Below are positions 6,086-59,795 of a stretch of DNA of 64,000 nucleotides, piece after piece. Numbering within the stretch: the stretch's first letter is position 1; every line of letters starts with the position of its first letter. This DNA is from Orobanche coerulescens (taxonomy: Eukaryota; Streptophyta; Magnoliopsida; Lamiales; Orobanchaceae), in NCBI GenBank assembly GCA_033398695.1, contig CM065803.1, positions 100,614,001 to 100,678,000 on the forward strand. Direction: 5' to 3'. Position numbers and translations under genes: made by a program. The notes beneath the pieces are model-generated. The model saw only the letters and a program-made list of their open reading frames with translations. It had not been told where the DNA came from and searched no databases.

Positions 6086-6365
6086 TTACGTACGTTAAAG
6101 ATTATACCTTACGTACGTAATGCAGTCTTTGGTCTACGGATAAGGAATCTTCGTCGGATGGTACGCATTTTCAGGCCAACTTTCGGAGCGATAACGATAG
6201 GCAAGTCAACGGGTGCTACGTACGTTAGCCGACTTTCGTTACGTACGTAACGATGTGTGTGATTTAGTCTAGTTAGTTCTGAGTTTTCCTTACGTACGTT
6301 AAGATTTCTACATAACGTACGTAACAGGGCTTACGTACGTAAAACTTCAGGCCTAACGTACGTAA
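6086..6365 (+). promoter_or_regulatory. Array of eight ACGTACGT palindromes in Gypsy-1 U3
   Basis: Eight copies of (T)TACGTACGTAA or close variants start at 6086, 6109, 6216, 6238, 6290, 6313, 6331 and 6354. Most are perfect palindromes. Spacing is irregular (about 20 to 107 bp), so this is not a simple satellite. The position upstream of the presumed transcription start suggests protein-binding sites. ACGT-core sites are typical of plant bZIP factors, but which factor binds is not known from sequence. Confidence 0.8.
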
Positions 6366-6595
6366 AGCCATTCTGAATTTAGAAAAGGACACCCGCCCTT
6401 TCATTTCTACCGACCCAAAAATCACCCCTTGCTCTTGTATACTATCCTCTACCTTTCCTAAATCAATTTTAGCTTCCCTAATCAAGTGCTATCCTATTGG
6501 AGTGAGTTGATCAAGCTCCAGAGAAGGTTTTGAAGGCGCTACCCTCTCGTTCTTCGTCATCCTTCGTCGTTCTTCATCGTCTCTTGTCAATTAAG

Positions 6596-7692
6596 GTAAG
6601 TTTATCGAATCTTGAACTCATTTTAGTGTTGTTATACGAGTCATACTAAATTTCGGATGCCTTGGGTAGTTTAGAACTTTCAATAATGATCGGACCGGTG
6701 AAAAACTATCACAATTGTTAATCGATGCCTATCAAGCTAGTAATTGGAATGGATGATGGTAGTACACGTAGTTGGATGGAAAAACTCATAATCGAATTTG
6801 TTATTCACCAACACCTTAGAATCATCTTGTTGAAGATTGCAATTATAATCCTATTACCATATTGTAAAACCCGTTGATAATTCCTTGATGAGCTAACTAA
6901 CGATTATCAAATCGGATAGGTATTCAAACATGTTAGGATTTCGGAGAATTAGTGCTTAATCGTTCTATTCTAGAAATTCAAATTGAAGTTAGTGATGTAA
7001 TTACGGTGGCCATTAGCCATAATCACAACGTAGGAATGTTGTATTAGAACATTGATCAACGAGATGATAAATTGTAAAATGGCGAACCGAGGAATTTAGT
7101 AATATGCTTTGTGGTAAAAAACAGAGAATATCGATCTCGGTAACATGAACAACCAGGTTTAGAATCCTAACGGGATGGGGGGAAATTTTCGTTAATCATC
7201 GTTGCTACCATAAGGTATTAATCGACGAACATGTAATAGGTTGAGCTTTCGGGTGTGATCGTTCGAGCCGTTGTGTTATCAAGGGAGTAACTCTCGTCTG
7301 ATTTGAGGGAAGTGAATCTTGCTCGGACCTTACATCTTGAAATTTCAAAATATTGCATGTGTTACTATTTGTGGAGTATTCCTGAGTAGATACTTCCGTG
7401 ACCCTTGGTTGCGGCCTTGGGAGTTTATATGTTGATATATCTTGGGGAACTGTGTTGCGGGATAAAACCTGAATGGTACCCACGTCCGGAGGATTCCTTT
7501 GTAGATACTTCAGTGACCCTTGATTGCGACCTTGGGAGTTTATGTGCTGATAAAAGAAACGACGTTGAATATTCGGTGATAACCTTGTTCTCTGAATTTA
7601 TCTGATTCTATCGATGAAATTGGTTCGATTTGTCTGACCTAGGTTGACTGACACGATACGTCGTGTCAGGCAAATTTGTTGAATATGTGCAG
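6596..7692 (+). other. Putative leader intron in Gypsy-1 LTR
   Basis: A textbook donor (AAG|GTAAGT, GT at 6596-6597) and a candidate acceptor (GTGCAG|GACATT, AG at 7691-7692) bracket this stretch. A perfect 9-bp-stem hairpin lies about 20 bases before the acceptor. The same donor, tandem repeat, hairpin and acceptor order recurs in the other chromovirus LTRs here. Splicing is inferred only. Confidence 0.45.
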
Positions 7693-7970
7693 GACATTCC
7701 CAAAGGTTCCGGTCAGGCTTGAGCAGTGTTGGGAAGAAGGCCTGTTAATTTTTTAAACTAAATTTGAATAATTCACGTTGTGTAAGAACCGTATGAACGG
7801 ACATTATTCCCTTTTGTATTTCGGTTTGTACGAATGCTTTCATTAGAATATTTCCGCAAACTACTCGTTGAATAAATTGTTTTAAAACCCCTTTAAAAAA
7901 AACTCACCTTGTGGGTCCCACACGGGATTCACGGCACTGTGGCGTCCCGGTTTATTTTGGGGGCGTTACA

Positions 7971-8650
7971 GCAGCTTACCTAGGAGCTTTGAGAAGTTTC
8001 GCCTAAACTACAATATGAATCGTAGGGACTATACCTTGGCGGAATTGCTGACAGAGCTTCAAGCTGTGGAAGGTCTCTTCAGGCAAGGGTATCAAGTTCT
8101 TGCGGCTACTTGTGTTTCGACTTCTAAACCCAAATGGGGGGAAAAGGAGAAACAAGTGGGCCAGAAGCAAGTGGAAACTCTCAAGACAAAGAGCAAAGAT
8201 CCTCATACTGAGGCGAATAAAAAGCCAAAGGAAAAATGCTACAAGTGCGGTCAGAAAGGACATTTCAAAGCTACTGCCCTGCTCTTAAAAAAGATGTCTC
8301 GTGCATTAGTAGTCAAACATGTTTGGCAGCTTGTTCTTCCACTTCGTGGATAGTTGATTCAGGCTCCACTGATCATGTTTGCTTTGACTCGCATGGTTTT
8401 CAGGTAACCAAGCATCTTAGTGCAGGTGAGATCACCATTAACAGGGGTGATTATTCCAGGCTTATGGCTGTTGTAGTGGGAGTCGTGCAATTGAAGACTA
8501 GTGATAAATTATTAGTCCTTAATAATGTATTATGGGTGCCAGATTTTAGAATGAATTTAATTTCAGTTTCTAAATTGAGTTGTGATGGTTATTTAATTTC
8601 TTTTGATGATGATGCTATTATTAGAAGAAAAGTTCAAAGGTATCTATACT
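7971..8650 (+). pseudogene. Copia-0 gag C-terminus and protease, broken
   Basis: The element is entered in mid-gag because Gypsy-1 occupies its upstream part. The first frame (to 8353) holds a lysine-rich tract and a CCHC knuckle start (CYKCGQKGHFK) whose last Cys is lost through a frameshift near 8265. The second frame restores the context (SYCPAL) and carries the aspartic protease motif WIVDSGSTDHVC, followed by LNNVLWVPDFRMNLISVSKL, typical of Ty1/Copia. The methionines at 8015 and 8236 are internal, not real starts. Nonfunctional. Confidence 0.85.
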
Positions 8651-17941: not shown

Positions 17942-17944
17942 CTA

Positions 17945-22790: not shown

Positions 22791-24283
22791 TCTCACGTAG
22801 GAATGTGTAGGTTGAAATGAAAGATGTCTTCATCCCTCTTATTCAACTCCCCACTACTAGCAACAACTCATGCATGTGGAAATCTAACCCCACCTCCACA
22901 ATTATCATTCATTAAAGGATGGAGACATAAGTCCAAAAGGAAGGTGGCTAGAAATGGGGGGGGGGGGGGGGGGCGGCCCATGGAGAAACGGATGAGTTTG
23001 GTTCGTTTCGGACTCCCGAGAGTCCAAACAGATAAATTCCAATTCCGTCCCGATGTATTTGTATAGTTTAATTAATCCAATTAATTTCATCATATCAAAT
23101 ACAAAATAATATAATTAATTTCTCCAAGAAATAATTATATATATGAATTAAATTAATCACCCAGTAATTTATTTAATTCATTAGGCCGTAAATCAATTTA
23201 TCCAATAAATCGATTTAAACATCAAATGTTCCAAAATTAGATATCCAATATCTAATAGTCATAATGAGAGAATTAGCTTTATTCATTCCGTCGTCAATCC
23301 TATTGCGCGACTTACAGTCCGTCTCGATCAAAGAATGGGAGGAACCAAAGAGTAGTAGCACCACCTAGCCGGCTGGCCTACACTGCACTCAACCGAGAAT
23401 GAATGATTGGGATCATTCAAGAACCATTCTGTCGTGAATACCAGTATACGTATAAACCCTTCTTTCAAATGTCCCGATCAAGTTATAGAGTCACGATCAG
23501 TCAAACCCTATCTGTACTTGATGCTATGCATGCGTTAATGCAAATCGAGATCATCGAGCTGTCGTGTATCTAATACAACTAGCTCCAATGCTTTGGCCAA
23601 AGACTTATGATCTCATCTCCCAATAACCGCATAGGACATATAACCCGCTCACTAACGGGAGAAAGAATTCTATCTTGGTATTCGCAGACTGCTACTTGCC
23701 CGTCAAGATGCACGTCGAGGTTGACCCCCGCCTTCCAGTTTACAGGGTCGAACTACTCTAATGAAAATCTTGACGTCACAAGCACATCCCTACTAAATCC
23801 TCAAGTCGAAGGTTCATGAATACCTATCACAACATTTCGATTCTTTCATTGACTGTCCCGGAGTGAAATCCGTGTGATGAATCGAGGGTGAGTCGCTTCG
23901 AGTATACTAATCCAATTAGCATACCTATAACGTGTGCTCCCACTAACCATTAGTGTTCGACAGGCACTCTCCATGTCAAAGAACACGTCATACAAGTCTT
24001 CACATAAACTTAACGCCCAGTCAAGTTTCATCGACTTGCGAACGATTAAGTATTTGAGTTATAACCTTTCCAGTGCCGACCCCCTTATCCAATAAGGAGT
24101 GGAACGTTTTGCTCTCAAATATACGGACTAGTTTCTATATGTTTATTTATGAGTTAGGAATGCCAGTAACTACCAGTAAATAAAGAAACATTCATTTGCC
24201 TTATATAAATGGTTTACATAATTCCAAGTACAATGCCCTCACTCAACAACCTCTGAGTGGCATTCGAGGGCATACTCCTAACA
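22259..24283 (-). repeat. Copia-1 5' LTR
   Basis: Pairs with 14493-16445 (same ends TGTTGGG...CCTAACA), 2025 bp. The length difference comes largely from a long (CT)n(AT)n microsatellite at 22701-22786 and a G run at about 22957-22973. Both short-repeat runs are shorter in the 3' LTR, which suggests slippage after insertion. Confidence 0.94.
22701..22786. repeat. (CT)n(AT)n compound microsatellite
   Basis: A CT run is followed by a long AT run inside the Copia-1 5' LTR. The 3' LTR has only a short CT run at the same place (about 14936-14955), so the tract expanded or contracted after insertion. Confidence 0.95.
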
Positions 24284-24288
24284 CTCCG
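24284..24288. repeat. Copia-1 target-site duplication, right
   Basis: CTCCG, identical to 14488-14492. The Copia-G gag reading frame resumes directly after it. Confidence 0.95.
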
Positions 24289-25261
24289 GGCCATGAGCGC
24301 GAGATTATTTTGGTCAAGAAAATCTTCATCGGGATATTCGTCGCTCCATGTTGCGATTAAAACCTCCTTGGGTTTTACACGACAGTTCTTTGCAAAGTGG
24401 CCTGGTTTACCACATAGTCGACAAGTGTTGTCGAACTTCTTAGGTTCGCCCGCTTGAATGTCCTTCTTCCTCCGGTTTAATAAGTGTTGGAACTTATTAA
24501 TATTCTTGGCATAATATGCCATTTCTTCATCACTTTCGTCCACCGGGATTTCTTCTTTCTTTTTCGTCATCTTAGCCTTCATGGCTAACGATCTTTCCTT
24601 CAGTTTTGGTTTGGCATTCCGAGACTTTAGAATTATCTCATAGTTGATGAGAGAACCGACGAGAGCACTAAAATCAAGATTTTTAAATCTTTAGATTCCA
24701 TTATTGCCGTAACCATACCGTCCCATTATCGAGGTAGTGATCGGAGAATTTTCTTTACTTTCTCACTACTCGAAAGTGGTTTTCCAAAACATGCTAATCC
24801 ATTGGTGTTGACCGAAAATCGGTCAAGCATAATTGAGATGGATTCGTCGTCCTTCATTTGGAATAATTCATAATCGTGAAGGAGCATGTTTATCTTCGTC
24901 TCTTTGACTTGAGACGTACCTTCGTGTGTTACCTCAAGCATTTTCCAGATTTCTTTGGCAGTATCACACGATGATATCCGGTTGTGTTCTTCCGGATTTA
25001 AAGCACAGTATAATAATTGCGTCACTTTGCAATTATAATGGTCGTTTTTCCAATCCGCATTGTCATACTCTTCAAAAGTTTGAGAGTTCTGTTTGAGTTC
25101 GTCGGAATTTTGGGACCAAGGCATATCACCTTCCATAATTCGATATCGTAAGATCGGATGAAAATAGACATTTTCTTCTTCCAAGTCATGAAATTCGATC
25201 CATCAAAAAATGGTAATCGGTTGAAAGCAAGGCCTTCGACTGGAGCCATTTGAAACGCCAT
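24284..25261 (-). pseudogene. Copia-G gag, N-terminal part
   Basis: Starts at about 25261 (MAFQMAPVEGLAFNRLPFF, then GSNFMTWKKKM) and is a UBN2-type Copia gag: YDIELWKVI, CALNPEEHNRI, AKEIWKMLEVTHEGTSQVKE, MLLHDYELFQMKDDESI. A frameshift near 25100 and a stop at 24726 interrupt it. Further on are the linker KEEIPVDESDEEMAYYAKN, a CCHC knuckle CRLCGKPGHFAKNC and the acidic DEYPDEDFLDQNNLALMARS, where Copia-1 is inserted. The gene continues at 14487-13929. About 510 codons in all, longer than the Copia-1 gag and with two knuckles. Confidence 0.83.
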
Positions 25262-25318: not shown

Positions 25319-26540
25319 TGTTGGGTACCAAATCGGATATTTGCGCCGTTTTGTGCGGAAGCGTAAATAAATTGTGGAAAATAAATGACACAAGGATTTA
25401 TAGAGGTTCAGCTATTAACGAAGCCTACGTCCTCTCTCGATGTATCTTTTTCTTAGGATTAAGATCAAAACCTCTACGCCTCTCTTCTATCGGTCGAGGG
25501 ATTACCGTTACAAGCTCGTCTTCTATCGGTCCGAGTAAAACCATTTTTCCTTCTCTATTGGATAAGGAATCAACCACTCTAGCTTTCTATTGGTACTAGA
25601 TAAACCTCACTAAGATAGCGATTGCGATTCTAACAATGCCGGATACTTGATCCTAATAACACCGAATCCAATCGTATCTTTTCTTTTACCTCTCGTGTAT
25701 AATGTTGAATGTATAAACACTCAAACTAACAATATAAGCTCAATATTACAACAACAATGTAAGTATATGAATATAAGATCAATGTCTTGAATGCTTGGAG
25801 TTGTTGTACTCAAACAATACCATAGGAATGGTATTTATAGGCATTTTCCACAAACTAGCCGTTGCTGGCTGTTTTGACTTGCTAGCGTGCGCTAGCCTTT
25901 CTCTATTAGCTTGCGCTAGTATCATTAGCGTGCCTATAGCGTGCGTTAGACTGTGCCCAGTTTCAGTCCAGTAGCTTCGTTTCTTCTTTAGCGTACATTA
26001 TGCCTTCTGCCTTACGTACGTAACTCTCTTGTATTAGCGTGCGTTAATATTACAATGTAGCGTGCGCTAATCCAATATATCCATTGCATGGATTGTCAAA
26101 GTATCCATTTGATATGCTGACTTTGACCTGCTTTTCCCAACGTTCTGATTGACTAGAATTCAAACTGATATTTAGTGTGCGCTAAATATCATTCCTTGCG
26201 TGCGCTAGAACTAACATCATTGCATGCATCATTCTGAGTTTGAATATCTTCACAACGGTAACAAGACTTCGATAGCGTGCGTTAATGATAACGTGTAGCG
26301 TGCGCTATCTCATCAGCTGACTTCCCTTCAGGTAACTTCGAACTTGGCTGATATGCAGATTACTCCTCATTAGCGTGCGCTAACATATATGTCTTAGCGT
26401 GCGCTAGACATGCACTTTGATCAGATTTTTGCGTCTTCGTCTGCTTCGCTGTTTTGCTTCGCCTCGATGTTGTTTTGTTGTTTAGAAACTTTAATCATCA
26501 AAACATAAATTAAATAATGTGTGGAATAAATATTCCAACA
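25319..26540 (-). repeat. Copia-G 5' LTR
   Basis: Plus strand reads TGTTGGGTACC...ATATTCCAACA, with a perfect 6-bp terminal inverted repeat TGTTGG/CCAACA, 1222 bp. In sense (minus) order it has a motif array (26407-25878), a TATA box CCTATAAATAC (25831-25841), then the R-U5 region, then the primer site. No matching 3' LTR was found on the other side of the gag; the far end seems lost. Confidence 0.85.
25878..26407 (-). promoter_or_regulatory. Array of about 13 TAGCGTGCGCTA motifs in Copia-G U3
   Basis: About thirteen copies of TTAGCGTGCGCTAA or variants (plus-strand view), for example near 25880, 25937, 26035, 26058, 26172, 26195, 26272, 26296, 26369 and 26395. One ACGTACGT type (TTACGTACGTAA) lies at about 26012. 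The array lies directly upstream of the TATA box in the element's sense. Every asymmetric copy has TG at its centre on the plus strand, that is CA in the sense strand. Confidence 0.82.
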
Positions 26541-28096
26541 AAAACCACAAAACTCAATCCAGTCAATATCTAAAACAAGATTCCGTAATTCGATAATCAT
26601 ACCAATAATCAATTTAACATGATATCAATACTTATAACATTCTAAACTCGAATTCAACTTCTACAAATTAACAAGGTTACTCCTTGTTAATATTCATCAA
26701 ATTCATGGCAAAACAGTACCATGATTATCAACAATCCGAAATATCTAAGCGGTTCAACACAATGCACAATTATACCCCAACCTTAATCATAATCCTCCAA
26801 ACTCATGTCATAATTCGTATTTCACCGAGAACATACGAAAATTACAAATTCAATCATCATAATCTTAGTTTCTAGATATCAAATCCATTTTTATATCCAA
26901 AACCATTAACATATGATCACATATTCATCTTTGACATGATATAGATACACCAAGAACCCCAAGAACACCAATAATCCATAACCACGTTCATAAGCATCAA
27001 AACAACATCATCCAAGATGTGTTCTAACATTTTAACTATTATCTTAACTTATAATCCAACAAATATCAACTTAATATCGTCTTCTTCAACACATACCTCA
27101 TGAAAACTCAAGAATCCTAACCGTACCTCCATAATCCAATACAATATGAAGTAGTCATCAATCAACAATCTCTAAACTGAAAATGAAAAGAGGGATTAAC
27201 CAACATACCTCTTTAAATAAGAACAACAACCTTTAACAATCACAAGAATCATCATAAACTCCAAGTATCAAGTCTCCAATCTAAGCCGTGATGTTCCCCA
27301 TCAAGTTAGAAGAACCAAGAATCAATCTGGGAGTGAAAAAGGACGAAAATGGAAGAACAGTACGTCAAAATAATGAAGGAATGGGTGTTCTCATATTTAT
27401 AAACCCAGACTAATCGTATGCAAAATTCATCATTTGACGTACGCAACACCGCCTTACATATGCTACCCGACCTCGATAGTATACGCAACACCAGTCCAAA
27501 GACTACTGCCTCTTCATTACAATGACTTACATACTCAAAGCCCATGCTATATCATATATAACTCGGCATTGACTTGCTACAACAATTGATATAGATCTCA
27601 ATTATGTACGAATCATCTATCAAACTTATGTACATAACATACTATTAACGTACGCAATCCCACAACATTAACCTACGTAATGCGTAGTCCAGAGGCTACG
27701 GCTTTTGGCGTCAGGTATCTTTATGTACGCAATGATCTTCTGATAGCATACATAAACAACAAACACTTAACGTCTGTAGTGCCCATCCATAGCGCATGTT
27801 AACTCTTTGTTGGCTCATTTGTCCACACCCATGCCGAAAGTGCCCGAGTTCCACCTACCGAAAGCAACAACAAATTTGACATGCTAAGAAGCTGGCAAGA
27901 TTCTTAGTCTTATGTACGTAGGTTACCTGCTTAACCTACATAAGCTTCACCATGTTAACATATGCAAGGTCACATCCTTTACGTACGTAACTAAGGGGAA
28001 ATAAGCTGTAACACTTAGCGACATTCCAATTGTCCTTGTCAGTCGTCTCAACATAGTGGATATGTACACGTTCTAATAATATTCCCATATGATATA
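26541..28096 (-). repeat. Antisense chromovirus LTR-like 5' half (block A)
   Basis: No coding frame is supported. In minus-strand order it shows degenerate palindromes with TACGTACGTAA-like cores (27990-27425, for example TTTACGTACGTAAC near 27980), a TATA box (TTTATAAATATG, 27394-27403) and a donor AG|GTATGTTG (GT at 27208-27207). This is the first half of the LTR architecture seen in Gypsy-3 and Gypsy-5. Its 3' half is missing, cut at 26540 by Copia-G. The identity is inferred from layout rather than close alignment. Confidence 0.55.
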
Positions 28097-29329: not shown

Positions 29330-29590
29330 TGTTGGTGTAAAATCGGAATATGCGCTGTTTATTGGAACATTTTGTTCCATACATGCTATAATAATGTTTT
29401 GATGATTTAAGTTGATGAACAAAACAAAACAACAAAGAGACGAAGCAAAGCATCGAAGAAGACGAAGTCACAAAAAGGTGTTCTGAACATGTATAATGTA
29501 TGCAACAGAATGATCATAACGTACGTAAAATGCCAAGCCGAACGTACGTAATGTAGAATTGATAACGTACCTAATGCGAAGGTTCTGAGT
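29330..29590 (+). repeat. Chimeric Copia-G-type LTR scrap
   Basis: The first 31 bases (29330-29360) resemble the antisense LTR edge at 25319 (TGTTGG...AAATCGG...GCGC). The rest (from about 29357) resembles the sense LTR start: TTGGAACATTTTGTTCCA, GTTTTGATGATT, then AACAAAACAAC and GAAGACGAAG. Three AACGTACGTAA-type motifs follow at 29516-29575. So two LTR edges lie head to head. It has no coding content. Confidence 0.6.
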
Positions 29591-30680: not shown

Positions 30681-30830
30681 TGTAATACCCGAGATTTCTG
30701 CTATGTATTTGGAACGTTTGATATTGTAATTATTGCTTTTTGATCCGAGTATTATTCTCCGTATTTCATAATCTGGTATTGTTGAGCGCATGATTTCATG
30801 AATGTGATTTAAATTGTGATTCTGCGCATG

Positions 30831-31139
30831 TAGCGCACGCTATCGACTAAGTGTAGCGTACGCTAACTTGGATCCATAGCGCACGCTGTGAAGGAACCTT
30901 AGCGCACGCTATACGTGGTCAATATGATTGAGACGTGTTGGTAGGTGAGATCAGGCCGGGGATCTTGGTCGAATTGCGTCGGGATGAACCTGGACGGCTT
31001 TCGGGAAAAAGCCAAGTCAACGCGTTAGCGCACGCTACTCATATGAGGATAGCGCACGCTAAAGGCTGAGTACAGTGAAATCAGTAATGTTTCAAATAGC
31101 CGTTAGCGCACGCTATGAGTATGGACTAGCGCGCGCTAA
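30831..31139 (+). promoter_or_regulatory. Upstream motif array in Gypsy-3 U3
   Basis: Eight copies of TTAGCGCACGCTAA or variants, at about 30831, 30854, 30877, 30899, 31025, 31050, 31103 and 31126. Most have a CA centre; one has TA (perfect palindrome) and one CG. The last copy ends 11 bases before the TATA box. A second cluster of about seven lies at 31858-32075, inside the putative intron. Confidence 0.85.
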
Positions 31140-31150
31140 TAACCATTTTC

Positions 31151-31159
31151 TATATATAG
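31151..31159 (+). promoter_or_regulatory. Gypsy-3 LTR TATA box
   Basis: TATATATAG follows the motif array directly and precedes a CAACATCC context where transcription could start. The position fits a plant LTR promoter. The 3' LTR has the same box near 38478. Confidence 0.65.
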
Positions 31160-31358
31160 GACAACATCCTTTTGCATATTTTCAGACTATTCACTCCCCC
31201 ATCAGAATTCTTGAACTTAGAAAGTCACTCTCTTCATCCTAAACACTTCTTGCAGGCATCCTAACTCGTGTTGAAGATTGTAGAGCATTGGGGATTGGTG
31301 TTCAAGCCTTCGGCGTTGGATTGCTTCGAATTTGCTCCTTGTTCATCACTACTTTGAG

Positions 31359-32790
31359 GTAGATGATTCTTCACTAATATTAGTAGTATTCTGAAGGACG
31401 TTTTTGATGATGTTTTGGGATTTACCTAGTCAGTTAGATTCATAAGTAGTCGAACATCATGTGTTAGAAGGATATTTTCGATGTTTCGGTACTTATTCAT
31501 CGTATAAACCATTGAACCTCTTAGTGTTTGAACTCGTAGCATATTCTGAAGCTTCAAATCGATTTGTAACCCGAATATGGAGATTTTCAAAGTTCTTATG
31601 CCTTTACATAAAGGAATCATACATTTTGGGACATATAACGGATTGAACTTAGGATATTCCTTGAAGATCAATGATGAATTATGGTGTTGTGATGATTATA
31701 CGTAACCTTGTATCTCGTAGTCGTTTAATCCGTATAGAACTTTCACAAACCTTATGAGCATGATATGCATGGGGATGACATGTATTATCACCATAGAATA
31801 CATGAGTTCATCACCAGTAGATCGAGTTTTCTGCCAGTAGTAATCTGCCATGCACGGTTAGCGCACGCTAACATACGTAAGTTAACGTGCGCTATTGGGA
31901 ATAAGTTAACACATGCTACGTTTGGTACATAAAGTACGTTTTGTTATCAATCGAGTCAGTCGGATGATCAGAGAGAACTGTCAGTCCATGGCTAGCGTAC
32001 GCTAGACTTAGACGATAGCGTACGCTAACAGGCGGGCTTAGCACACGTTACGTAGAGTACGTAGCGTACGCTAAGTGGTTCAGGCAGATTACATATTTAG
32101 AGATTTTGGCCATATACCAGATTGATAGGCAATCGTTCGACTTGAGATGAATTCTATATCATTTCTTTTGTTAAGGTTCGAGCTTGCTACGATTGGTCGA
32201 AGGAGGCGGCCTTCGAGTGTGTTGAGATCATTGAAGTGTTTCATTCTTGCCATCTTCGAGGCAAGTATCGTTATGTGTTAATATTGGTATTTTTGAGCAT
32301 GCCTGTGGTTTATTCATGTTGATGAACATGAGATTTATTTCGTTGAATTGTCATGATATTCGTTATCTAGTGTTTGTATGTTCATGTTGATGGGCATAGC
32401 AATTTGGCATATATGTATGCATGAGTTGTGTTTGTGTATGTTGTGCGATCTATGCTGAGGGCGCTGGATCGGATGTCCACCTCGTGTTGGTCCGACGGGA
32501 TCATCTTGGGATCTAGGCTGAGGGCGCTGGATCATTGGACGGGTTATTTCCACCTCGTGTTGGTCCGACGGGATCATCTTGGGATCTATGCTAAGGGCGC
32601 TAGATCATTGGAATACCCTTGCTGTGTTAATGGAATCTTGTGGATTCGCATTATCGGATTCCGGTAGCGGAAGTCCGTGTGGTGTATCTTGTTATGTATT
32701 GTTGATGCATATTTGATTCGTTTAAATGATACTTGTACTAGCATCGTTTTGCTAACCCCTTCGGGGGTGGACATTTGTTTTGATGTTCAG
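31359..32790 (+). other. Putative leader intron in Gypsy-3 LTR
   Basis: Donor TTTGAG|GTAGATG and acceptor GATGTTCAG|GTAGCC bracket 1432 nt that contain the second motif cluster, the tandem repeat and a hairpin 22 bases before the acceptor. In the 3' LTR the acceptor AG reads GG (near 40110), which would not matter for a transcript made from the 5' LTR. Splicing is inferred only. Confidence 0.5.
32448..32620 (+). repeat. Tandem repeat in Gypsy-3 LTR
   Basis: About two and a half units of GGGATCTATGCTGAGGGCGC then TGGATC and CCACCTCGTGTTGGTCCGAC then GGGATCATC. The 3' LTR has the same at 39767-39935, and block B (29125-29320) carries related units in reverse. Confidence 0.88.
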
Positions 32791-33098
32791 GTAGCCGAGG
32801 AGCAGGGAAACAGCCACAGTACTGATGTGACGATGAAGGGGTTCAGTGATCTTTGTTGTTGTTGGTGATTTGTCTTTCTTGGTTTGATTTCAGTACTCGA
32901 GTACGCGTGTCTTATTAATATCATTTCGATATGGTTGTATTAATTACTCGTTGAACCAGTTGGACCGGTTTTGTAAACTTGAATTTCCGTGGTATTGATG
33001 TCTTATATTTATATTTCTTTTATTTAGCCTTGTAAATCCTTACTTAAAGGGTTTACGTCGCTGTAATTATTCCGAATATCTCGGGGTGTTACAGAATA

Positions 33099-33972: not shown

Positions 33973-36663
33973 TTGGTCAGAACGGAGGCAGAAAAGATTT
34001 TTCATTTCGATATGCGAATGAAGCCGGAGATTCAGCAGTACATGTCCGGATTCGAGTGTACTACGTTGCGACAGTATCAAGACAAAGCGCTGGCCTACGA
34101 CATGAAAGAGGCGGCGGTGGAGAAATCAGTGGAGGCAAAGAAGCAGAAAGTGACCGGCAGCTTCTCAGAAAACAAGAGTGGTGGGCCCCGCAAGGGCCAG
34201 TCTTCCTTTTATTTGGCTAGGAAACATCCACATCCTTCTAGAGGTGGAAAGAAGTTCTGGACTACATCAGAAGTTTCAGACGCATCAAAGAAATGCTACA
34301 ATTGTGGTCAAGTAGGGCATATTCGACGTGATTGCCCCGCATCTTCTGTGACTTGTTACGAGTGTGGGCAAGAAGGGCACCGTGTGGCTTTCTGTGGAGT
34401 TGCTACTAGATCTTTTGGTACTCGCACTCTAGCACCAGTTCCAAGGGAGATAAGTGTGAACGAGACGCAGCAGAGTGGATTTCAGCAGCAAAATATTGGG
34501 AAGAGAGAGACATCCAGTGCTGGGTCCGTTCCTCCGCGCCTGTACGAGATGAGGAAATCTGACGATCAGAATACTGCTGTTGCATCAGGTACGATTCAGA
34601 TCCTTTTGCAACCAGTTAGTGTCTTATTCGATTCCGGAGCTACACATTCTTTCATATCATTGAACTGTGTTAATCGTTTAAAAATCGCGTGCTTATTTGA
34701 TTGTGAACCATATGTTGTGGGTTTGCCGAGTGGAGAGAGAATTGTGGGAACCCTAGAGGCTAGAGATTTTCCAGTGTCTATAGGAGGGAGAGATTGGCTA
34801 TCGAATCTTATTGTAGTTGACATCTACGGTGACGATTTAATTCTCGGAGACGATTGGCTCAACCATTATGGAGTTATTCTGAATTACCGAGAGAGAGTCA
34901 TTTCTATCATTGCTGATGACGGATCTGAACACTTATTCCGAGGATGGAGACCGGGAAGCTCGGGAAAATTGATCAAAGCAATGAAAGCCGTGAAATTATT
35001 GAAGCAGGGATGTCATGGACTTTGGTGCTATGCCATGAGGAAAGAGGAAGAAGTAGAGCTCTCGTCGATTTCAGTTGTGAATGAGTTCTCAGATGTATTT
35101 CCTGACGAACTACCTGGGTTACCTCCGCAGAGAGAAGTGGAGTTCACTATCGAATTAGAGCCTGGAGCAGCTCCTATTTCCAGAGCACCATACCGCATGG
35201 CGCCAACCGAGATGTATGAACTCAAGAAGCAACTGGAGGAATTGTTACAGAAGGGTTATATTCAACCTAGCGTTTCTCCTTGGGGAGCGCCCGTTCTCTT
35301 TGTCCGGGAGAAATACGGATCCCTCCGACTGTATATTGATTACAGGGAGCTCAACAAGATGACGATCAAGAATAAGTATCCTATACCTCGGATCGACGAC
35401 TTGTTTGGTCAACTGCAAGGGGCAAGGGTATTCTCGAAGATTGACTTGCGATCAGGATACCATCAGTTGAGAATTAAGGAATCGGATATACCGAAATCTA
35501 CTTTCAGATCCCGGTACGGGCATTATGAATTTGTAGTGATTCCATTTGGACTTACCAATGCTCCTGCGGTATTTATGCAATTGATGAATCGGGTATTCTT
35601 AGAATACTTGGATAAATTCGTGGTCGTCTTTATCGATGACATCTTGATCTATTCGAAAGACACGAAGGAGCATGCCGAGCATTTGCGTGTAGTTTTCAGC
35701 ACCTTGAGGAAGGAGCAACTGTATGCAAAGCTTTCGAAATGTGAGTTCTGGCTTAAAGAAGTAACCTTCCTTGGGCATGTGATATCAGCGGATGGAGTTC
35801 AGGTGGACCCGAAGAAAGTCGAAGCAATCTTGGAATGGGAAGCTCCTAATAACGTAAAAGAAGTCCGGAGTTTCCTAGGACTTGCTGGATATTATCGTCG
35901 TTTTGTAGAAGGATTTTCTAAAATTGCTCGTCCGCTCACTCAGTTGTTACAGAAAACTCAAAAGTTCACGTGGGATGAGAAATGCCAGGTTGGTTTTGAT
36001 GAACTTAAGAAGAGACTAACGACAGCACCTATATTAGCGTTACCAGATGGAACTGATGGATTCATGGTATACAGCGATGCTTCAAATCAGGGTCTGGGAT
36101 GTGTGTTGATGCAAAAAGATAAGGTGATTGCCTATGCTTCTCGGCAGTTGAAACCGTACGAGGTTAATTACCCGACTCATGATCTGGAGGTAGCAGTTGT
36201 AGTCTATGCATTGAAAATTTGGAGACATTATTTGTACGACACTCATTGTCAGATCTTTACAGATCATAAGAGCCTCAAGTACATTTTCAGTCAGAAAGAA
36301 TTAAACATGAGGCAGATAAGGTGGCTGGAATTGATCAAGGATTACGACTTGGAGATTCTCTATCATCTGGGTAAAGCAAACGTAGTAGCCGATGCATTGA
36401 GCCGTAAACCTGTTTCTCTTCGAGTGTTGGAAGCACTTACATCCCAAACCAGCATTCAACGGGAACTGATTCGCGAAGAGATTGAAGTATGGGCACCAGG
36501 AATCCAAGGGCAACTATATGTGATAGAACTGACTTTATCACTAGTCGAGGAGATTAAATCTAAGCAGTTGAACGATTCTCTGATCCTTCGGTTAAGTGAC
36601 GAAGTAAAGAAAGGAAAAGCCCCAGGATTCGTGATAAAAGATGATGGAGTTCTGAGATTTTAG
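33973..36663 (+). CDS. pol: Gypsy-3 gag end, protease, RT and RNase H (open frame)
   Basis: One 896-codon frame, the longest in the window. The frame is open upstream to about 33901, so the start given is not a biological one. By residue: gag core end 1-60, CCHC knuckles 108-121 ([14 protein letters not shown]) and 128-141 ([14 protein letters not shown]), protease with FDSGATHSF at about 219-227, RT about 415-600 with the YxDD box FIDD at 553-556, and RNase H from about 695 ([12 protein letters not shown]) through DHKSLKYIF. It then has the connection [16 protein letters not shown]. All catalytic residues I can check are present. It ends at TAG 36661, beyond which integrase continues in frame. 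The TAG replaces what is CAG in Gypsy-5 (FQGRLCVP). Confidence 0.92.
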
Positions 36664-37971
36664 AGTCGACTTTGCGTTCCCGATAATGAGGAATTGAGAC
36701 GGACAATTCTGAAGGAAGCTCACAGTGCGCCCTATTCTATTCACCCCGGCAGCAGTAAAATGTATAAGGATCTTAAACAAAACTTCTGGTGGGGGAATAT
36801 GAAGAAGGACGTAGCAGAGTACGTTTCAAAGTGTTTGACGTGTCAGCAGGTTAAGATTGAACATCAGCGACCTGCCGAAATGTTAAAGCCACTTCCGATC
36901 CCTGAATGGAAGTGGGAGGATATCTCGATGGATTTCATCACCAATATGCCAAGAACCAAGATCGGACTGAACATGATTTGGGTTGTAGTTGATCGACTAA
37001 CCAAGTCGGCTCACTTCCTAGGAATTAAAGATACTTGGGGACCCGAGAAATTGGCGCGAGTATTTATTGCAGAGATAGTCAGATTGCATGGGACGCCGAA
37101 GACCATTATTTCTGATCGAGATGGTGGCTTCGTGTCGCACTTCTGGAAAGCAGTTCATAGGGCTTTGGGGACTGAGCTCAACTTTAGCACAGCTTATCAT
37201 CCCCAAACGGACGGTCAGTCCGAAAGGACTATTCAAACAGTAGAAGACATGCTTAGAGCTTGTGCGTTGGATTGGTCAACTGATTGGGAAGTTCACTTGC
37301 CATTGATTGAATTCACCTATAACAATAGTTGGCATGCTTCTATTAAGATGGCACCATTTGAAGCTTTGTACGGGAGAAGATGCCGATCACCCTTGTGTTG
37401 GGATGATTCCTCGGACTTGATCGGGACGGAACCAGAATTGATAGTTCAGACTCAAGAGAAGATAGCTTTGATTCGAGAAAGACTGTTGACTGCCCAGAGT
37501 CGACAGAAGTCTTATGCAGACGTACGTCGTCGCCCTCTAGAGTTCGACATTGGGGACCACGTACTATTGAAGGTGTCTCCTACACGAGGAATTTTCCGTT
37601 TTGGGAGGAAAGGCAAGCTAAGTCCAATATATATCGGACCATTCGAGATCCTCGAGAGAGTTGGATATTTAGCATACAGGTTGGCCTTACCGCCATCGCT
37701 GAGTCACGTTCACAATGTGTTTCACGTATCCCAATTACGGAAGTATGTACCAGATCCCAGTCATATCATTGAGTTTAATGAGATCGAGATAGCTAATGAT
37801 GGCACCTTCGAAGAGAGACCAATCAAGATACTTGAGAGTCGGATCAAACAATTGAGAAATAAACCGATACCCTTGGTTAAAGTACAATGGTCACGGCACG
37901 GAGTTGAAGAGGCCACTTGGGAAACGGAGGACAGTATGAAGACTAGATATCCAGAGTTGTTTTCATCTTAA
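36664..37971 (+). CDS. pol: Gypsy-3 integrase with chromodomain (open after one stop)
   Basis: Open and in frame with the upstream block after the TAG at 36661-36663. It has the zinc domain ([23 protein letters not shown]) and the core acidic residues in [25 protein letters not shown] and SERTIQTVEDML. The GRRCRSPLCWDD and GPFEILERVGYLAYRL boxes follow, then a C-terminal chromodomain (ESRIKQLRNKPIPLVKVQW, EEATWETEDSM). Chromodomains steer chromovirus integration to certain chromatin marks. The ATG at 36694 is internal; separate translation is not implied. Ends TAA 37971, 35 bases before the LTR. Confidence 0.92.
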   Translation, partial: SRLCVPDNEELRRTILKEAHSAPYSIHPGSSKMYKDLKQNFWWGNMKKDVAEYVSKCLTCQQVKIEHQRPAEMLKPLPIPEWKWEDISMDFITNMPRTKIGLNMIWVVVDRLTKSAHFLGIKDTWGPEKLARVFIAEIVRLHGTPKTIISDRDGGFVSHFWKAVHRALGTELNFSTAYHPQTDGQSERTIQTVEDMLRACALDWSTDWEVHLPLIEFTYNNSWHASIKMAPFEALYGRRCRSPLCWDDSSDLIGTEPELIVQTQEKIALIRERLLTAQSRQKSYADVRRRPLEFDIGDHVLLKVSPTRGIFRFGRKGKLSPIYIGPFEILERVGYLAYRLALPPSLSHVHNVFHVSQLRKYVPDPSHIIEFNEIEIANDGTFEERPIKILESRIKQLRNKPIPLVKVQWSRHGVEEATWETEDSMKTRYPELFSS

Positions 37972-38006: not shown

Positions 38007-40414
38007 TGTAATACCCGATATTTCTGCTATGTACTTGGAACTTTTGATATTGTAATTATTGATTTTTGATCTGAGTATTATTCTCCGTATTTCATAATCC
38101 GGTATTGTTGAGCGCATGATTTCATGAATGTGATTTAAATTGTGATTCTGCGCATGTAGCGCACGCTATCGACTAAGTGTAGCGTACGCTAACTTGGATC
38201 CATAGCGCACGCTGTGAAGGAACCTTAGCGCACGCTATATGTGGTCAATATGATTGAGACGTGTTGGTAGGTGAGATCAGGCCGGGGATCTTGGTCGGAT
38301 TATGTCGGGATGAACCTGGACGGCTTTCGGGAAAAAGCCAAGTCAACGCGTTAGCGCACGCTACTCATATGAGGATAGCGCACGCTAAAGGCTGAGTACA
38401 GTGAAATCACTAACGTTTCAAATAGCCGTTAGCGCACGCTATGAGTATGGACTAGCGCATGCTAATAACCATTTTCTATATATAGGACAGCATCCTTTTG
38501 CATATTTTCAGACTTTTCACTCCCCCATCCGAATTCTTGAACTTAGAAAGTCACTCTCTTCATCCTAAACACTTCTTGCCGGCATCCTAGCTCGTGTTGA
38601 AGATTGTAGATCATTGGGGATTGGTGTTCAAGCCTTCGGCGTTGGATTGCTTCGAATTTCCTCCTTGTTCTTCACTACTTTGAGGTAGGTGATTCTTCAC
38701 CAATATTAGTAGTATTCTGAAGGACGTTTTTGATCATGTTTTGGGATTTACCTAGTCAGTTAGATTCATAAGTAGTCGAACATCATGTGTTAGAAGGATA
38801 TTTTCGATGTTTCGGTACTTATTCATCGTATAAACCATTGAACCTCTTAGTGTTTGAACTCCTAGCATATTCTGAAGCTTCAAACCGATTTGTAACCAGT
38901 ATATGGAGATTTTCAAAGTTCTTATGCCTTTACATAAAGGAATCATACGTTTTGGGACATATAACGGATTGAACTTAGGATATTCCTTGAAGATCAAAGA
39001 TGAATTATGGTGTTGGGATGATTATACGTAACCGTGTATCTCGTAGTCATTTAATCCGTATAAAACTTTCACAAACCTTATGAGCATGATATGCACGGGG
39101 ATGACATGTATTATCACCATAGAATTCATGAGTTCATCACTAGTAGATCGAGTTTTCTGCCAGTAGTAATCTGCCATGCACGGTTAGCGCACGCTAACAT
39201 ACGTAAGTTAACGTGCGCTATCGGGAATAAGTTAACGCACGCTACGTTTGGTACGTAACGTACGTTATGTTATCGCCGAGTCCGGGCCGATCGAGAGAAT
39301 CTGTCACCCATGGCTAGCGACGCTAGACTTAGACGATAGCAGCGACGCTATCAGTAGCTTAGCGCACGTTACGTAGAGTACGTAGCGTACGCTAAGTGGT
39401 TCAGGCAGATTGCATATTTAGAGCTTTTGGCCGTAGACCGGATTGATAGGCAATCGTTCGACTTGAGATGAATTCTATATCATTTCTTTTGTTAAGGTTC
39501 GAGCTCGCTACGATTGATCGAAGGAGGCGGCCTTCGAGTGTGTTGAGATCATTGAAGTGTTTCGTTCTTACCATCTTCGAGGCAAGTATCGTAATGTGTT
39601 AATATTGGTATTTTTGAGCATGCATGTGGTTTATTCATGTTGATGAACATGAGATTTATTTCGTTGAATTATCATGATATTCGTTATCTAGTGTTTGTAC
39701 GTTCATGTTGATCGACATAGCGATTCGGCATATATGTATGCATGAGTTGTGTTTGTGTATGTTGTGCGATCTATGCTGAGGGCGCTGGATCGGATGTCCA
39801 CCTCGTGTTGGTCCGACGCGATCATCTTGGGATCTAGGCTAAGGGCGCTGGATCATTGGACGGGTTATTTCCACCTCGTGTTGGTCCGACGGGATCATCT
39901 TGGGATCTATGCTGAGGGCGCTGGATCATTGGAATACCCTTGTTGTGTTAATGGAATCTTGTGGATTCGCATTATCGGATTCCGGTAGCGGAAGTCCGTG
40001 TGGTGTTTCTTGTTATGTATTGTTGATGTATGTTTGATTCGTTTAAATGATTCTTGTACTAGCATCATTTTAATAACCCCTTCGGGGGTGGACATTTGTT
40101 TTGATGTTCGGGTAGCCGAGGAGCAGGGAAACAGCCACAGTACCGATGTGACGACGAAGGGGTTCAATGATGTTTGTTGTTGTTGGTGATTTGTCTTTCT
40201 TGGTTTGATTTCAGTACTCGAGTACGCGTGTCTTATTAATATCATTTCGATATGGTTGTATTAATTACTCGTTGAACCAGTTGGACCGGTTTTGTAAACT
40301 TGAATTTCCGTGGTATTGATGTCTTATATTTACATTTCTTTTATTTAGCCTTGTAAATCCTTACTTAAAGGGTTTACGGCGCTGTAATTATTCTGAATAT
40401 CTCGGGGTGTTACA
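38007..40414 (+). repeat. Gypsy-3 3' LTR
   Basis: TGTAATACCC...GGGGTGTTACA, 2408 bp, the partner of 30681-33093. Motif arrays are at about 38157-38463 and 39184-39395. The segment 39258-39360 differs much more from the 5' LTR than the rest, with single-base losses at the centre of two palindromes. It is followed by TTTTG. Confidence 0.95.
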
Positions 40415-56218: not shown

Positions 56219-56219
56219 C

Positions 56220-57876: not shown

Positions 57877-58252
57877 TGTAACACCCCCAAGTTATTCAGG
57901 GTATATTACAGCGTCGTGAGCCCCACCGTGGGACCCACAAGGCTAAACATATGCGGAACTATCAAACTTGACCGAGAAGGTCTACATACAATGGAAAGAA
58001 AGACACTACAAATGGTATTCAAAAACCATAACCAATGAAACCATATACATCACTACACAAATCAATACCTCGGCAACACAGGCCGGAACATCAAAGAAAC
58101 TGAAATACAATACTCGAGTATTTAAAATCCATTCCAGTACAACAACGCTGAATGGAGGAAACTAAAAGAGATAACCGGAGACAAGACACAGTATCACACT
58201 TGCCCATCATTTTCATGCCGACCTGATACCTGCCTGTCCGATCTCCTGGAAC

Positions 58253-59014
58253 CTGAAATACATAAAAAGTATTTCCCCCATAAAGGGGTTAGCCGTCGAA
58301 TAGCTAGTGCAAGTATATCAAGTATGAAATACAATACTCCTCGACAATAAAGTAAATGTAACCGTCAATTCATCAATTCAAGACTAGTATTCCGGAATAA
58401 CTAAATCTCATAGCATCGCAACAATACATATATGAATACCGTGGAACCGCACCAGAGGCTACGGAACCCTCAGAGGACCCGTCGGTCCGTCCCGGAGTGG
58501 TTAATTCATATTATCCATGGAATCGCACTGAGGCTACGAAACCCTCGGAGGACGTCGGTCCGTCCCGGAGTGGATATAAATAAGCATGCCATTAATATTT
58601 CATACTTTCAAAGTCGAGAACGCACATTCATAAATATATACTTGCCTTTGAGACATCGACAATTCGAACGGAAAAAGGTATGAGTTCGGTAGGTCCAAGA
58701 ACGAGCTTCCGGCACCTAAACGATTCGCAAGGAATATGATAATCAATTATCCATATTCAAATTACACGAAGAAACCCCCGAAACCCGTCTACGATCCATA
58801 AGGATATACGGATAATCAACTAGAGGTTGGAAAAACGTCCAAAATCTCACAAGTCCGAAAACGGCACAATCCAAACCATAAAACCGTAGGAAAAGCATGC
58901 ATACGGTATATATACATCATAATCTCGAAGTTCTCAAGCTTCAAAACGGGTAAATCGGACGAATCTACGAAAAAACCCAAAATTCCCAAAAGGTAGGGTT
59001 CTAAGGATTTTTAC
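58253..59014 (-). other. Putative leader intron in Gypsy-5 LTR
   Basis: Donor AAG|GTAAAAATCC and acceptor TATTTCAG|GTTCC enclose 762 nt holding the tandem repeat and the hairpin about 20 bases before the acceptor. Splicing is inferred from consensus and from the shared layout. Confidence 0.5.
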
Positions 59015-59207
59015 CTTGATTCGGACGCTAGGAGGAATTAGATGTTGAGAAATCCTTGTTCTCCAACCAAATATATTGTTGTTAGAAGGAAGATCGCTTC
59101 CAAACGCCTAAGATCGCCTCTCCCTAGTGATTCCCGTCGAAAAGGAGTGAAGTAGGTGAGAAATGACGAAATGGTAGTCAACTGTCATATTTATATCTGC
59201 CCAGTCT

Positions 59208-59795
59208 AGCGCACGCTACGCCTCCTTCATTAGCGTGCGCTAGCGAAGTTACCGGGTAGTCCAGTGGCTTCTGCCATAAGATGTTAGCGCGCGCTACGAA
59301 ACATCCTTTGCGTGCGCTAACTGCTGCCCTGCCAAAATCTCAGCTTACTGCCTGGGTCCGCTAGCGTGCGTTAATACTAAGCACTAGCGTGCATTACACC
59401 ACACATATAGCGTGCGCTAGCCGTTGCCTAGCGTGCGCTACCTGCTAGTCCAGAAAGTCTGGAACTCCACTGCTTCTACTGACCAAAACATTAGCGTGCG
59501 CTACCATTATGCCTTAGCGTGCGCTACGTAATAGTCCAGAAACCTGACAAACTCACTGCCCCTGCCGACCCGGCCATTAGCGTGCGCTACGGACGGATGT
59601 TAGCGTGCGCTACTATCCATGGATAGCGCGCGCTAACAAAATCCTAGCGTGCGTTAATCCGCCAGTCCAGAGAGCAGTCCGAAGTACTGGTTCTGACCTG
59701 ACTGATCCTCTTAGCGCGTGCTACGGCTCAGAGCTAGCGTGCGCTAATCAAGCAGAATTAGCGTGCGTTAGCCTAGGCCTAGAGTGCGCTATATC
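59208..59795 (-). promoter_or_regulatory. Array of about 18 TAGCGTGCGCTA motifs in Gypsy-5 U3
   Basis: The densest array in the window, for example near 59209, 59230, 59284, 59361, 59407, 59429, 59491, 59514, 59578, 59600, 59622, 59644, 59711, 59733 and 59759 (plus strand). Nearly all asymmetric copies have TG at the centre on plus, that is CA in element sense. The array ends just upstream of the TATA box in sense. Confidence 0.85.

Follow-up and report, generated by a model that had tools for sequence, protein, structure and literature searches.

The as-1 element is used in common by unrelated plant invaders, in viral and T-DNA promoters, and its step is shorter than 23 bp; the spacing of its two palindromes was reportedly the subject of work by Krawczyk in 2002. 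As described in part of PMC9360754, some TGA factors bind tandem as-1 sites as two dimers, the spacing affects recognition, affinity and activation, and the A-box TACGTA is among the other sites occupied by TGA factors. In the cited passages of PMC5735166, VANC21 binds a 9-bp motif that is dense and in one orientation in non-coding VANDAL21 sequence and is not associated with motifs that occur elsewhere at low density. The type of motif differs among related copies, and AT9TSD1, an element not related to VANDAL, is acted on by VANC6 as well. Among Brassicaceae COPIA elements, COPIA37, ONSEN, TERESTRA and ROMANIAT5 have clustered heat-responsive elements in their LTRs that were gained more than once, and those of TERESTRA differ in position between species (PMC5059998, in the part cited here).

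The window, by which we mean the whole 64-kb stretch of DNA analysed, contains arrays of a 12-bp palindrome. These resemble as-1 in being tandem palindromic sites at a set spacing, a distance of exactly 23 bp accounting for 27 of the 56 steps, but they differ from it in the 23-bp step itself, in having 8–18 copies, in lying in LTR retrotransposons, and in showing the TGACG core in just 1 of 63 copies (TGACGTACGCAA, at 27435 in block A). The A-box is contained in the letter form of the Gypsy-1 array. With the VANC arrays of Arabidopsis VANDAL elements they have in common a short dense motif in non-coding mobile-element DNA, variant letter types, and, were one protein to bind them, an unrelated element that is also targeted. 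VANDALs differ in being DNA transposons with motifs of 9 and 8 bases, which the passages cited do not call palindromes, which often stand in tandem repeats and which an element-encoded protein binds. None of these is seen here, as regards the protein among the 20 of 33 ORFs scanned with Pfam; the spacers are near random, and the only tandem repeat is an 86-bp unit in Gypsy-5, present in 2.2 copies. The likeness to the heat-responsive COPIA elements would be that of a trans-factor site gained by several retrotransposon families, and the difference is that the latter have a small number of sites per LTR, of the nGAAn type recognised by heat-shock factor, which the cited part of that paper places in COPIA families only and without a 23-bp grammar. 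Among the papers listed by literature searches for the motif letters, whose reach left out most subscription journals, none was seen to describe the motif in a retrotransposon.

The arrays and their carriers

Motif copies were scored as matches out of 12 to TARCGYRCGYTA over the window, both Gypsy-3 LTRs included, against a background of 20 dinucleotide shuffles. There are 46 perfect 12-mers, compared with 0 in the 20 shuffles; matches of at least 11/12 number 65 (shuffle mean 0.75) and those of at least 10/12 number 91 (shuffle mean 10.8). Of these 91, 79 are within 3409 bp of arrays, and the 12 outside them, every one of which scores 10, are about as many as expected by chance. The palindrome arrays are real, far above chance, and stand where the sequence-only reading had placed them. 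They are carried by the LTRs of three related Gypsy elements, one Copia element and two LTR fragments (Table 1), with copies of at least 10/12 numbering 8 in Gypsy-1, 13 in Copia-G, 5 in block A, 3 in the LTR scrap, 8 + 9 in the Gypsy-3 5′ LTR and 18 in Gypsy-5. When overlapping calls are merged, the second Gypsy-3 array falls from 9 to 8, and the resulting 63-copy set comprises, in the same order, 8, 13, 5, 3, 8 + 8 and 18.

Arrays had been said to be absent from the LTRs of the other Copia elements. The Copia-1 and Copia-2 LTRs indeed score 0 each on separate scoring, and the Copia-0 LTRs are covered just by the window-wide count, in which no match of at least 11/12 lies beyond the arrays. 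The array-bearing elements had also been called unrelated, and this stands only in part. Gypsy-1, Gypsy-3 and Gypsy-5 are close relatives, with 70–78% amino-acid identity over the RT/RNase H pieces compared (70–74% for Gypsy-1 against the other two), and form a single Gypsy lineage, apparently chromovirus-like; Copia-G belongs by its gag to the other superfamily. The sharing spans superfamilies because of Copia-G only. Strong Pfam matches to RVT_1 and SH3_Tf2-1 are found in Gypsy-3 and Gypsy-5, and the chromodomain scores are weak, under the curated cut-off in both (PF00385 E 4e-4 in Gypsy-3, Chromo E 1e-3 in Gypsy-5). The Gypsy-1 LTR repeat is 91% identical between 4-868 and 7143-7971. Copia-G has the Ty1/Copia arrangement of a copia-type gag after the LTR and a PBS-like site, its class being taken from gag with no RT identified, and it has its LTR start in common with the scrap.

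Outside the window, the exact doublet occurs in viral contigs in 1 stretch only, in a GC-rich contig that is prokaryotic to the eye; no relative of a Gypsy-3 RT piece was confirmed in viral contigs, and Gypsy-3 31000-33093 had no match among plasmids. The window itself has no tRNA genes.

Table 1. Elements, LTRs and palindrome arrays, by position in the window
Feature	Position	Strand	Remarks
Gypsy-1 5′ LTR	to 868	+	cut off by window edge
Gypsy-1 3′ LTR	5746..7970	+	TGTAATACC...GGCGTTACA, ends read from sequence
Gypsy-1 palindrome array	6086..6365	+	8 copies, form TTACGTACGTAA/TTA
Copia-G gag pieces	24217..25202	-	Retrotran_gag_2 PF14223 E 3.7e-24; zf-CCHC
Copia-G PBS-like TGGTATCGGAGC	about 25316	-	directly after LTR end, then copia gag
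Copia-G 5′ LTR	25319..26540	-	TGTTGG...CCCAACA, read by eye
Copia-G palindrome array	25883..26406	-	13 copies, sense form TARCGCACGCTA
Block A	27435..27990	-	decayed array; apparent LTR fragment; 5 copies at least 10/12, 13 copies at least 9/12
LTR scrap, Copia-G family	29494..29574	+	four slots at 23-bp steps, form TAACGTACGTAA
Gypsy-3 5′ LTR	30681..33093	+	2413 bp
Gypsy-3 array a	30831..31138	+	8 copies, chiefly TAGCGCACGCTA
Gypsy-3 array b	31859..32073	+	8 copies; 9 counting one overlapping weak call
Gypsy-3 pol, two open frames	33844..37968	+	zf-CCHC, RVP_2, RVT_1, RT_RNaseH, Integrase_H2C2, SH3_Tf2-1, chromodomain below its cut-off (Pfam)
Gypsy-3 3′ LTR	38007..40414	+	both arrays repeated at 38157-38464 and 39185-39394
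Gypsy-5 3′ LTR	57877..59955	-	TGTAATACCCG...GTGTTACA
Gypsy-5 palindrome array	59207..59791	-	18 copies, sense form TARCGCACGCTA
Gypsy-5 pol frames	within 59991-63774	-	Pfam

Array grammar and letter forms

The spacing of the copies had been read as irregular, but it has a main step of 23 bp. The 27 exact start-to-start steps compare with a mean of 1.3 and a maximum of 8 in 5000 random placements, and 34/56 adjacent steps are of 22–24 bp, though 22/56 are outside that range. Each of the seven arrays counted has steps of exactly 23 bp (Gypsy-1 4, Copia-G 5, block A 1, scrap 2, Gypsy-3 4 + 4, Gypsy-5 7), and they are seen with both letter forms; the steps along the Gypsy-1 array, for example, are 23, 107, 23, 51, 23, 18 and 23. 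Plain autocorrelation ranks lag 23 first in just block A and Gypsy-3 array a; it is in the top three without being first in Gypsy-1, Gypsy-3 array b and Gypsy-5, and is weak in Copia-G (z 1.6), where lag 24 is strongest. Block A keeps the 23-bp periodicity, its pair count and its lag-23 identity each being reached by 0 of 1000 shuffles. Although the longer gaps (54, 63, 126, 189 etc.) seem to be multiples of 10.5 bp, no helical phasing is claimed here, as the Rayleigh p of 0.006 obtained with repeated gaps counted each time loses significance when each gap length is counted once (0.07, or 0.06 by jitter) or the period is left free between 10 and 11 (0.19), and the best period over 5–20 is 11.35, not 10.5.

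Identity among the 11-bp spacers (26 of them, block A left out) is 0.284 within elements and 0.275 between them, slightly yet measurably above the 0.253 of shuffled spacers (null sd 0.007). When the motifs are masked, the only significant alignment among the six U3/LTR pieces pairs Copia-G with the scrap, which is of the same family, and three other matches are weak (E 0.15, 0.23 and 0.23). Because the 23-bp step goes with near-random spacers and masked U3s of different families do not align, the array grammar is 12-N11-12 with the spacer letters largely free. The intervening sequence is unrelated, as had been noted, apart from the Gypsy-5 86-bp repeat, which contains doublets, and the LTR start that Copia-G shares with the scrap. 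The masked alignments support the earlier proposal of a U3 cis-element common to Gypsy and Copia, and end-to-end inheritance of one block was rejected on them; a satellite or tandem-repeat nature was likewise rejected, the Gypsy-5 unit being the only repeat. Between the 5′ and 3′ LTRs of Gypsy-3, whose 3′ arrays retain 8 + 7 copies of at least 10/12, differences affect 7/190 motif sites and 84/2214 of the rest, so that both decay equally fast and comparison of the two LTRs gives no sign of purifying selection on this inserted copy. CpG retention gives no general argument for the arrays either, the motif-masked surroundings being depleted of CpG only in Copia-G (o/e 0.53), Gypsy-5 (0.56), block A (0.78) and the short scrap (0), and not in Gypsy-1 or Gypsy-3 (1.11, 1.09 and 1.30).

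The sense consensus is TARCGCACGCTA, with TWACGTACGTWA as a variant form. Only 32/63 copies are symmetric at positions 1–5/8–12. Position 3 (G/A) co-varies with position 10 (C/T), with 34 G-C and 15 A-T copies against 11 A-C and 3 G-T (Fisher p 3e-5, the copies not being independent), which is the pattern that the reading of two similar half-sites would produce. The sense strand has a central CA in 34 copies and TG in 2 in Copia-G, Gypsy-3 and Gypsy-5; the sole asymmetric copy of block A is TG (0 CA, 1 TG), and Gypsy-1 and the scrap have a TA centre that is uninformative on orientation. Where slots can be aligned between Copia-G and the scrap, the slot is kept and the letter form differs (TAGCGCACGCTA in the former, TAATGTATGCAA and TAACGTACGTAA in the latter); the first scrap slot (29494) is decayed to TAATGTATGCAA, and the other 3 copies score at least 10/12.

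An ACGT core of the kind bound by bZIP factors had been suggested, and this fails for the dominant form, ACGT being absent from 44/63 copies. The 19 copies that have it are concentrated in Gypsy-1 (8/8), block A (4/5) and the scrap (3/3), compared with 1/13 in Copia-G, 0/8 and 3/8 in the two Gypsy-3 arrays, and 0/18 in Gypsy-5. The brassinosteroid-response core CGCACG is present in 30/63 copies and in 0 of those in Gypsy-1, block A and the scrap, and the NAC-type core CGTR/YACG in 55/63, but the latter is nearly implied by the consensus. Naming a factor from known cores was accordingly rejected.

Promoter position and a proposed mechanism

Of the five arrays tested (Gypsy-1, Copia-G, block A, the first Gypsy-3 array and Gypsy-5), four have a TATAWA box after them, which agrees with the earlier placement of arrays just upstream of a TATA box. 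The sequence TATAAATA lies 43 bp downstream of the array in Copia-G (25832-25839), 33 bp in block A and 11 bp in Gypsy-5, and TATATA lies 12 bp downstream of Gypsy-3 array a (about 31151); none is found after the Gypsy-1 array up to 6600. Gypsy-3 array b lies on the downstream side of the first TATA box, at a distance of about 700 bp. Between the palindrome groups of both Gypsy-3 LTRs is an exact copy of the Tto1 stress-responsive 13-mer TGGTAGGTGAGAT, which is listed as SRENTTTO1 in a table of PMC9003456. This is a motif other than the palindrome and only backs the view of the Gypsy-3 U3 as a regulated promoter.

From the observed motif, 23-bp step, near-random spacers, pre-TATA position and occurrence in one Copia and one Gypsy lineage, we infer protein binding, cooperativity, activation and a host origin of the protein, and we give about an even chance to the idea that the arrays are U3 enhancer-type docking platforms, cooperatively bound by adjacent dimers of one trans-acting protein, in the manner of TGA factors on as-1 and with a layout resembling that of the VANC arrays. 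Each 12-bp palindrome would bind one dimer, and contact between dimers would favour a 23-bp start-to-start distance (about 2.2 helical turns) and put little constraint on which letters fill the 11-bp spacer. Trains of bound dimers, mostly two to four, directly upstream of the TATA box would then increase the element's transcription. Most probably the binder would be either a transcription factor of the host or a domesticated factor of transposase type, and Copia-G and the Gypsy lineage may have gained the element separately, or exchanged it with complete spacer turnover afterwards.

Other explanations and what the arrays may mean

It is distinctly unlikely, in our view, that the arrays instead bind a VANC-like protein made by a mobile element, which removes LTR DNA methylation and is used in trans by several families. 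The design resembles that of VANC in its density, two letter forms at aligned slots, CpG-rich motif and, to judge by the central CA of three families, mostly single sense orientation, but in Gypsy-1, Gypsy-3 and Gypsy-5 the 34–35 bp that separate pol from the 3′ LTR contain no additional ORF, and among the 20 of 33 ORFs of at least 150 aa that were scanned with Pfam, 12 have retroelement domains only and 8 have no match, the elements being partial. Moreover, VANC motifs are often in tandem repeats, and the spacers here are unrelated.

Less probable still is that a single array crossed from one superfamily to the other through template switching or gene conversion and that its spacers diverged later. 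The step, main letter form and main sense orientation are alike in Copia-G, Gypsy-3 and Gypsy-5, and exchange at the RNA level would preserve orientation. However, motif-masked pairs of different families have no significant residual similarity, and motif copies inside one LTR have unrelated spacers too. Such a transfer would account for the origin of the arrays and not for survival of the step and palindrome, and it is compatible with the docking platforms favoured above.

That the arrays are silencing targets, recognised by a host protein or small RNAs that nucleate heterochromatin, seems very unlikely. The arrays are dense in CpG (o/e 2.15 in Gypsy-1, 2.88 in the short scrap and 1.06–1.78 in the others), and 5 of the 7 motif differences between the Gypsy-3 LTRs are CpG-type transitions. 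But a harmful target should be lost, not multiplied to 8–18 copies at a preferred spacing in several families, and small-RNA targeting requires neither a fixed step nor free spacers.

An RNA-level role, in which neighbouring palindromes pair into U3 transcript hairpins for packaging, 3′ end formation or stability, is highly improbable. Copies are mostly in one sense orientation and any two could pair, but hairpins do not explain the exact step of 23, because spacers of 11 nt are no optimum for the predicted energy of an ideal doublet, the mean being -12.0 with 5 nt, -12.4 with 11 nt and -14.8 with 20 nt; in addition, the arrays are upstream of the TATA box in four of the five tested, and no Rfam family matches the window at gathering score. 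Least probable of all is functionless multiplication of a 23-bp tandem repeat by slippage, for although the Gypsy-5 repeat does include doublets, spacers within one LTR are about as unlike as those between elements while the 12-mers are near-identical, and neutral decay would hit motif and spacer alike, as it has between the Gypsy-3 LTRs.

Returning to cooperative binding by a single protein, we put forward as a tentative and rather unlikely extension that one trans-acting protein reading a 12-N11-12 paired-palindrome code serves retrotransposons of both superfamilies in this genome as a shared hub for anti-silencing or activation, and that the families jointly follow its specificity as this changes, a reading suggested by the two letter forms at aligned Copia slots. 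If the grammar holds genome-wide, it would open a direct way into how retrotransposons that are unrelated fall under a single regulator: the doublet would be a ready bait for finding the binding protein, and because aligned slots differ in letter form, co-evolution of mobile element and regulator could be tested. If true, the array recognition known from VANDAL DNA transposons would extend to LTR retrotransposons, or a host factor with a two-dimer code would be revealed.

Host elements and descent of the arrays

The domains and layout suggest that the window holds nested LTR retrotransposons of plant type (features in the table below). In particular, the array of Copia-G sits in a Copia LTR, as its LTR ends, its PBS-like TGGTATCGGAGC and a gag carrying the copia-type domain PF14223 demonstrate, and these rule it out as a Gypsy fragment. 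RT/RNase H pieces of Gypsy-1, -3 and -5 share 70-78% amino-acid identity and the latter two have a chromodomain match, albeit below the cut-off; judged from these sequences, the three are a single chromovirus-like lineage. Thus, the "several unrelated" carriers of the sequence-only reading reduce to one such lineage, one Copia family (Copia-G and an LTR scrap) and block A, a decayed, unclassified array that looks like an LTR fragment. All of the evidence comes from a single window of 64 kb, and the independent element families in it number two or three.

Coordinates of the array-bearing LTRs and neighboring repeats (LTR borders taken from repeats and termini)
Feature	Position	Strand	Remarks
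Gypsy-1 3' LTR	5746-7970		carries array; 5' LTR cut by window edge
Copia-G 5' LTR	25319-26540	minus	ends TGTTGG...CCAACA
Block A	27435-27990	minus	decayed array
Scrap	29494-29574	plus	LTR fragment, Copia-G family
56-bp tandem repeat	30159-30550		seven copies; adjoins Gypsy-3 5' LTR externally
Gypsy-3 LTRs	30681-33093, 38007-40414		~2.4 kb each; two arrays in each; repeats and termini
Gypsy-3 array a	30831-31138		5' LTR
Gypsy-3 array b	31859-32073, 39185-39394		both LTRs
85-bp tandem repeat	40445-40769		3.8 copies; past Gypsy-3 3' LTR
Further copy of 85-bp repeat	45280-45381		~4.6 kb off
Gypsy-5 3' LTR	57877-59955	minus	carries array

No relatives of Gypsy-3 were found in searches of viral contigs (RT piece, none confirmed) and plasmids (31000-33093). 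Work on LTR elements of sunflower and Arabidopsis (PMC12844716) mentions an extra ORF in active sunflower Tekay elements; the 34-35 bp between pol and 3' LTR here leave no space for one. Among the 20 ORFs scanned elsewhere, 12 gave only retroelement domains and eight gave no Pfam hit.

Pairwise comparison of six U3/LTR pieces with the motif masked gave one significant match, between Copia-G and the scrap (79% across roughly 125 bp from the LTR start, E 3e-23), and three weak ones (E 0.15-0.23). This contradicts a common block inherited across families. When the motif is left unmasked the Copia-G/scrap alignment extends into the first two motif slots, which hold TAGCGCACGCTA both times in Copia-G and TAATGTATGCAA followed by TAACGTACGTAA in the scrap. 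The aligned slots were likely retained while their letter form switched; their homology is likely rather than proven, because the motif itself aids the alignment.

Enrichment, spacing and symmetry of the palindrome

Each window position was scored against the 12-bp palindrome TARCGYRCGYTA, with 20 dinucleotide shuffles as background and both Gypsy-3 LTRs counted. There are 46 perfect copies in the window and none in the shuffles, so the motif is indeed commoner than in shuffled sequence; matches of at least 11/12 number 65 (shuffle mean 0.75) and those of at least 10/12 number 91 (mean 10.8). Nine array regions totaling 3409 bp hold 79 of these 91, and the remaining 12 all score exactly 10. 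Shuffling region by region gives concordant enrichment.

The spacing, previously called irregular, is not: among 56 adjacent pairs in seven arrays (second Gypsy-3 LTR excluded) the start-to-start step is exactly 23 bp in 27 and 22-24 bp in 34, while 5000 random placements with the same copy numbers and lengths gave a mean of 1.3 exact 23s (maximum 8) and never more than nine of any single spacing. Most copies belong to trains of two, three or four, and a few stand alone. The letters of the 26 spacers of 11 bp compared (block A excluded) are near random, with identities of 0.284 within and 0.275 between elements vs 0.253 (sd 0.007) when shuffled; the small excess above the shuffle spread may stem from composition by position. 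By autocorrelation, which requires no motif definition, 23 bp is still the strongest lag among the decayed copies of block A, where its identity and pair number were each matched by 0 of 1000 shuffles. It is also the top lag in Gypsy-3 array a and ranks second or third in Gypsy-1, Gypsy-5 and Gypsy-3 array b. In Copia-G the strongest lag is 24 and the signal at 23 is weak; lag 23 is not elevated in the LTRs of Copia-1 and Copia-2 or in two pol stretches.

In the 63 copies scored, positions 3 and 10 co-vary (34 G-C, 15 A-T, 11 A-C and 3 G-T), which fits two like half-sites, the copies not being independent; positions 1-5 and 8-12 are symmetric in only 32. The central dinucleotide on the sense strand is CA in 34 copies and TG in two, the others being TA or CG. 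CA:TG is 11:0 in Copia-G, 9:1 in Gypsy-3 and 14:1 in Gypsy-5, every copy in Gypsy-1 and the scrap has a TA center, and the block A centers are TA four times and TG once; with three families as its basis, this orientation bias is suggestive only.

Likenesses occur outside the window. A GC-rich contig of the viral collection (L001, 12696-12730) has TAGCGTGCGCTA and TAGCGCACGCTA at a 23-bp distance, placed by eye in an intergenic operator and probably a coincidence. The TAGCGTGCGCTA form, found at 25883 and other window positions, also appears in the sequence that PMC2921154 prints for the part of the Epstein-Barr virus Q promoter bound by EBNA1, which we take as a chance likeness.

Position in the LTR and decay

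A TATA box follows the array by 11-43 bp in Copia-G, Gypsy-3 (array a), Gypsy-5 and block A, as had been noted from the sequence; in the fifth array examined, that of Gypsy-1, none follows up to 6600. Gypsy-3 array b, whose letter forms are more varied, begins some 700 bp past the first TATA box and may be a second promoter or downstream enhancer. The stress-responsive element TGGTAGGTGAGAT of tobacco Tto1 has an exact 13-bp match between palindrome groups in both Gypsy-3 LTRs (30939-30951 and 38265-38277; mean 0.00 in 100 shuffles). Of the 12 AGTCCAG copies in the window (both strands), six fall inside arrays: one in Copia-G (25965), one in block A (27686) and four in Gypsy-5 (59258, 59447, 59533 and 59664). 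It is possibly a second shared motif, though the independent cases are too few for a claim.

Between the Gypsy-3 LTRs, 7 of 190 sites have diverged within the motifs and 84 of 2214 elsewhere; this similar divergence indicates that inserted copies decay neutrally, and motif conservation presumably stems from the replicating source lineage. Outside the motifs, three arrays are poor in CpG (observed/expected 0.53 in Copia-G, 0.56 in Gypsy-5 and 0.78 in block A), but those of Gypsy-1 and Gypsy-3 are not (1.09-1.30); the short scrap has no CpG there. The ratio is 0.94 for the whole window and 1.0-1.3 across nine LTR stretches measured, values that are high for old methylated plant repeats.

Candidate binder

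The palindrome suggests that a protein dimer would bind each copy, and the preference for a 23-bp step, combined with spacers of free letter content, suggests that neighboring dimers would touch each other. TGA factors on as-1 are a plant precedent, described in PMC9360754 as two dimers on tandem sites with spacing dependence.

The second-ranked explanation, after a U3 enhancer platform, is an anti-silencing platform like that of the VANC proteins. The precedent is the dense, oriented motif arrays within mobile elements that PMC5735166 describes for VANC; according to a later paper on that system (PMC10398659), the targeted repeats grow, shrink and evolve in synchrony. We consider this reading unlikely. 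Binding of bZIP factors at ACGT, proposed earlier, fails as a general explanation because 44 of the 63 copies lack ACGT. A NAC-type core is present in 55 of the 63, although the consensus all but entails one.

The U3 enhancer platform is favored by the dimer and step reasoning together with the TGA and VANC precedents and that of heat-responsive elements, in which several COPIA families acquired sites for one factor (as reported in PMC5059998). There is about an even chance that the arrays would serve in this way, with one trans-acting factor that the families share binding to them.
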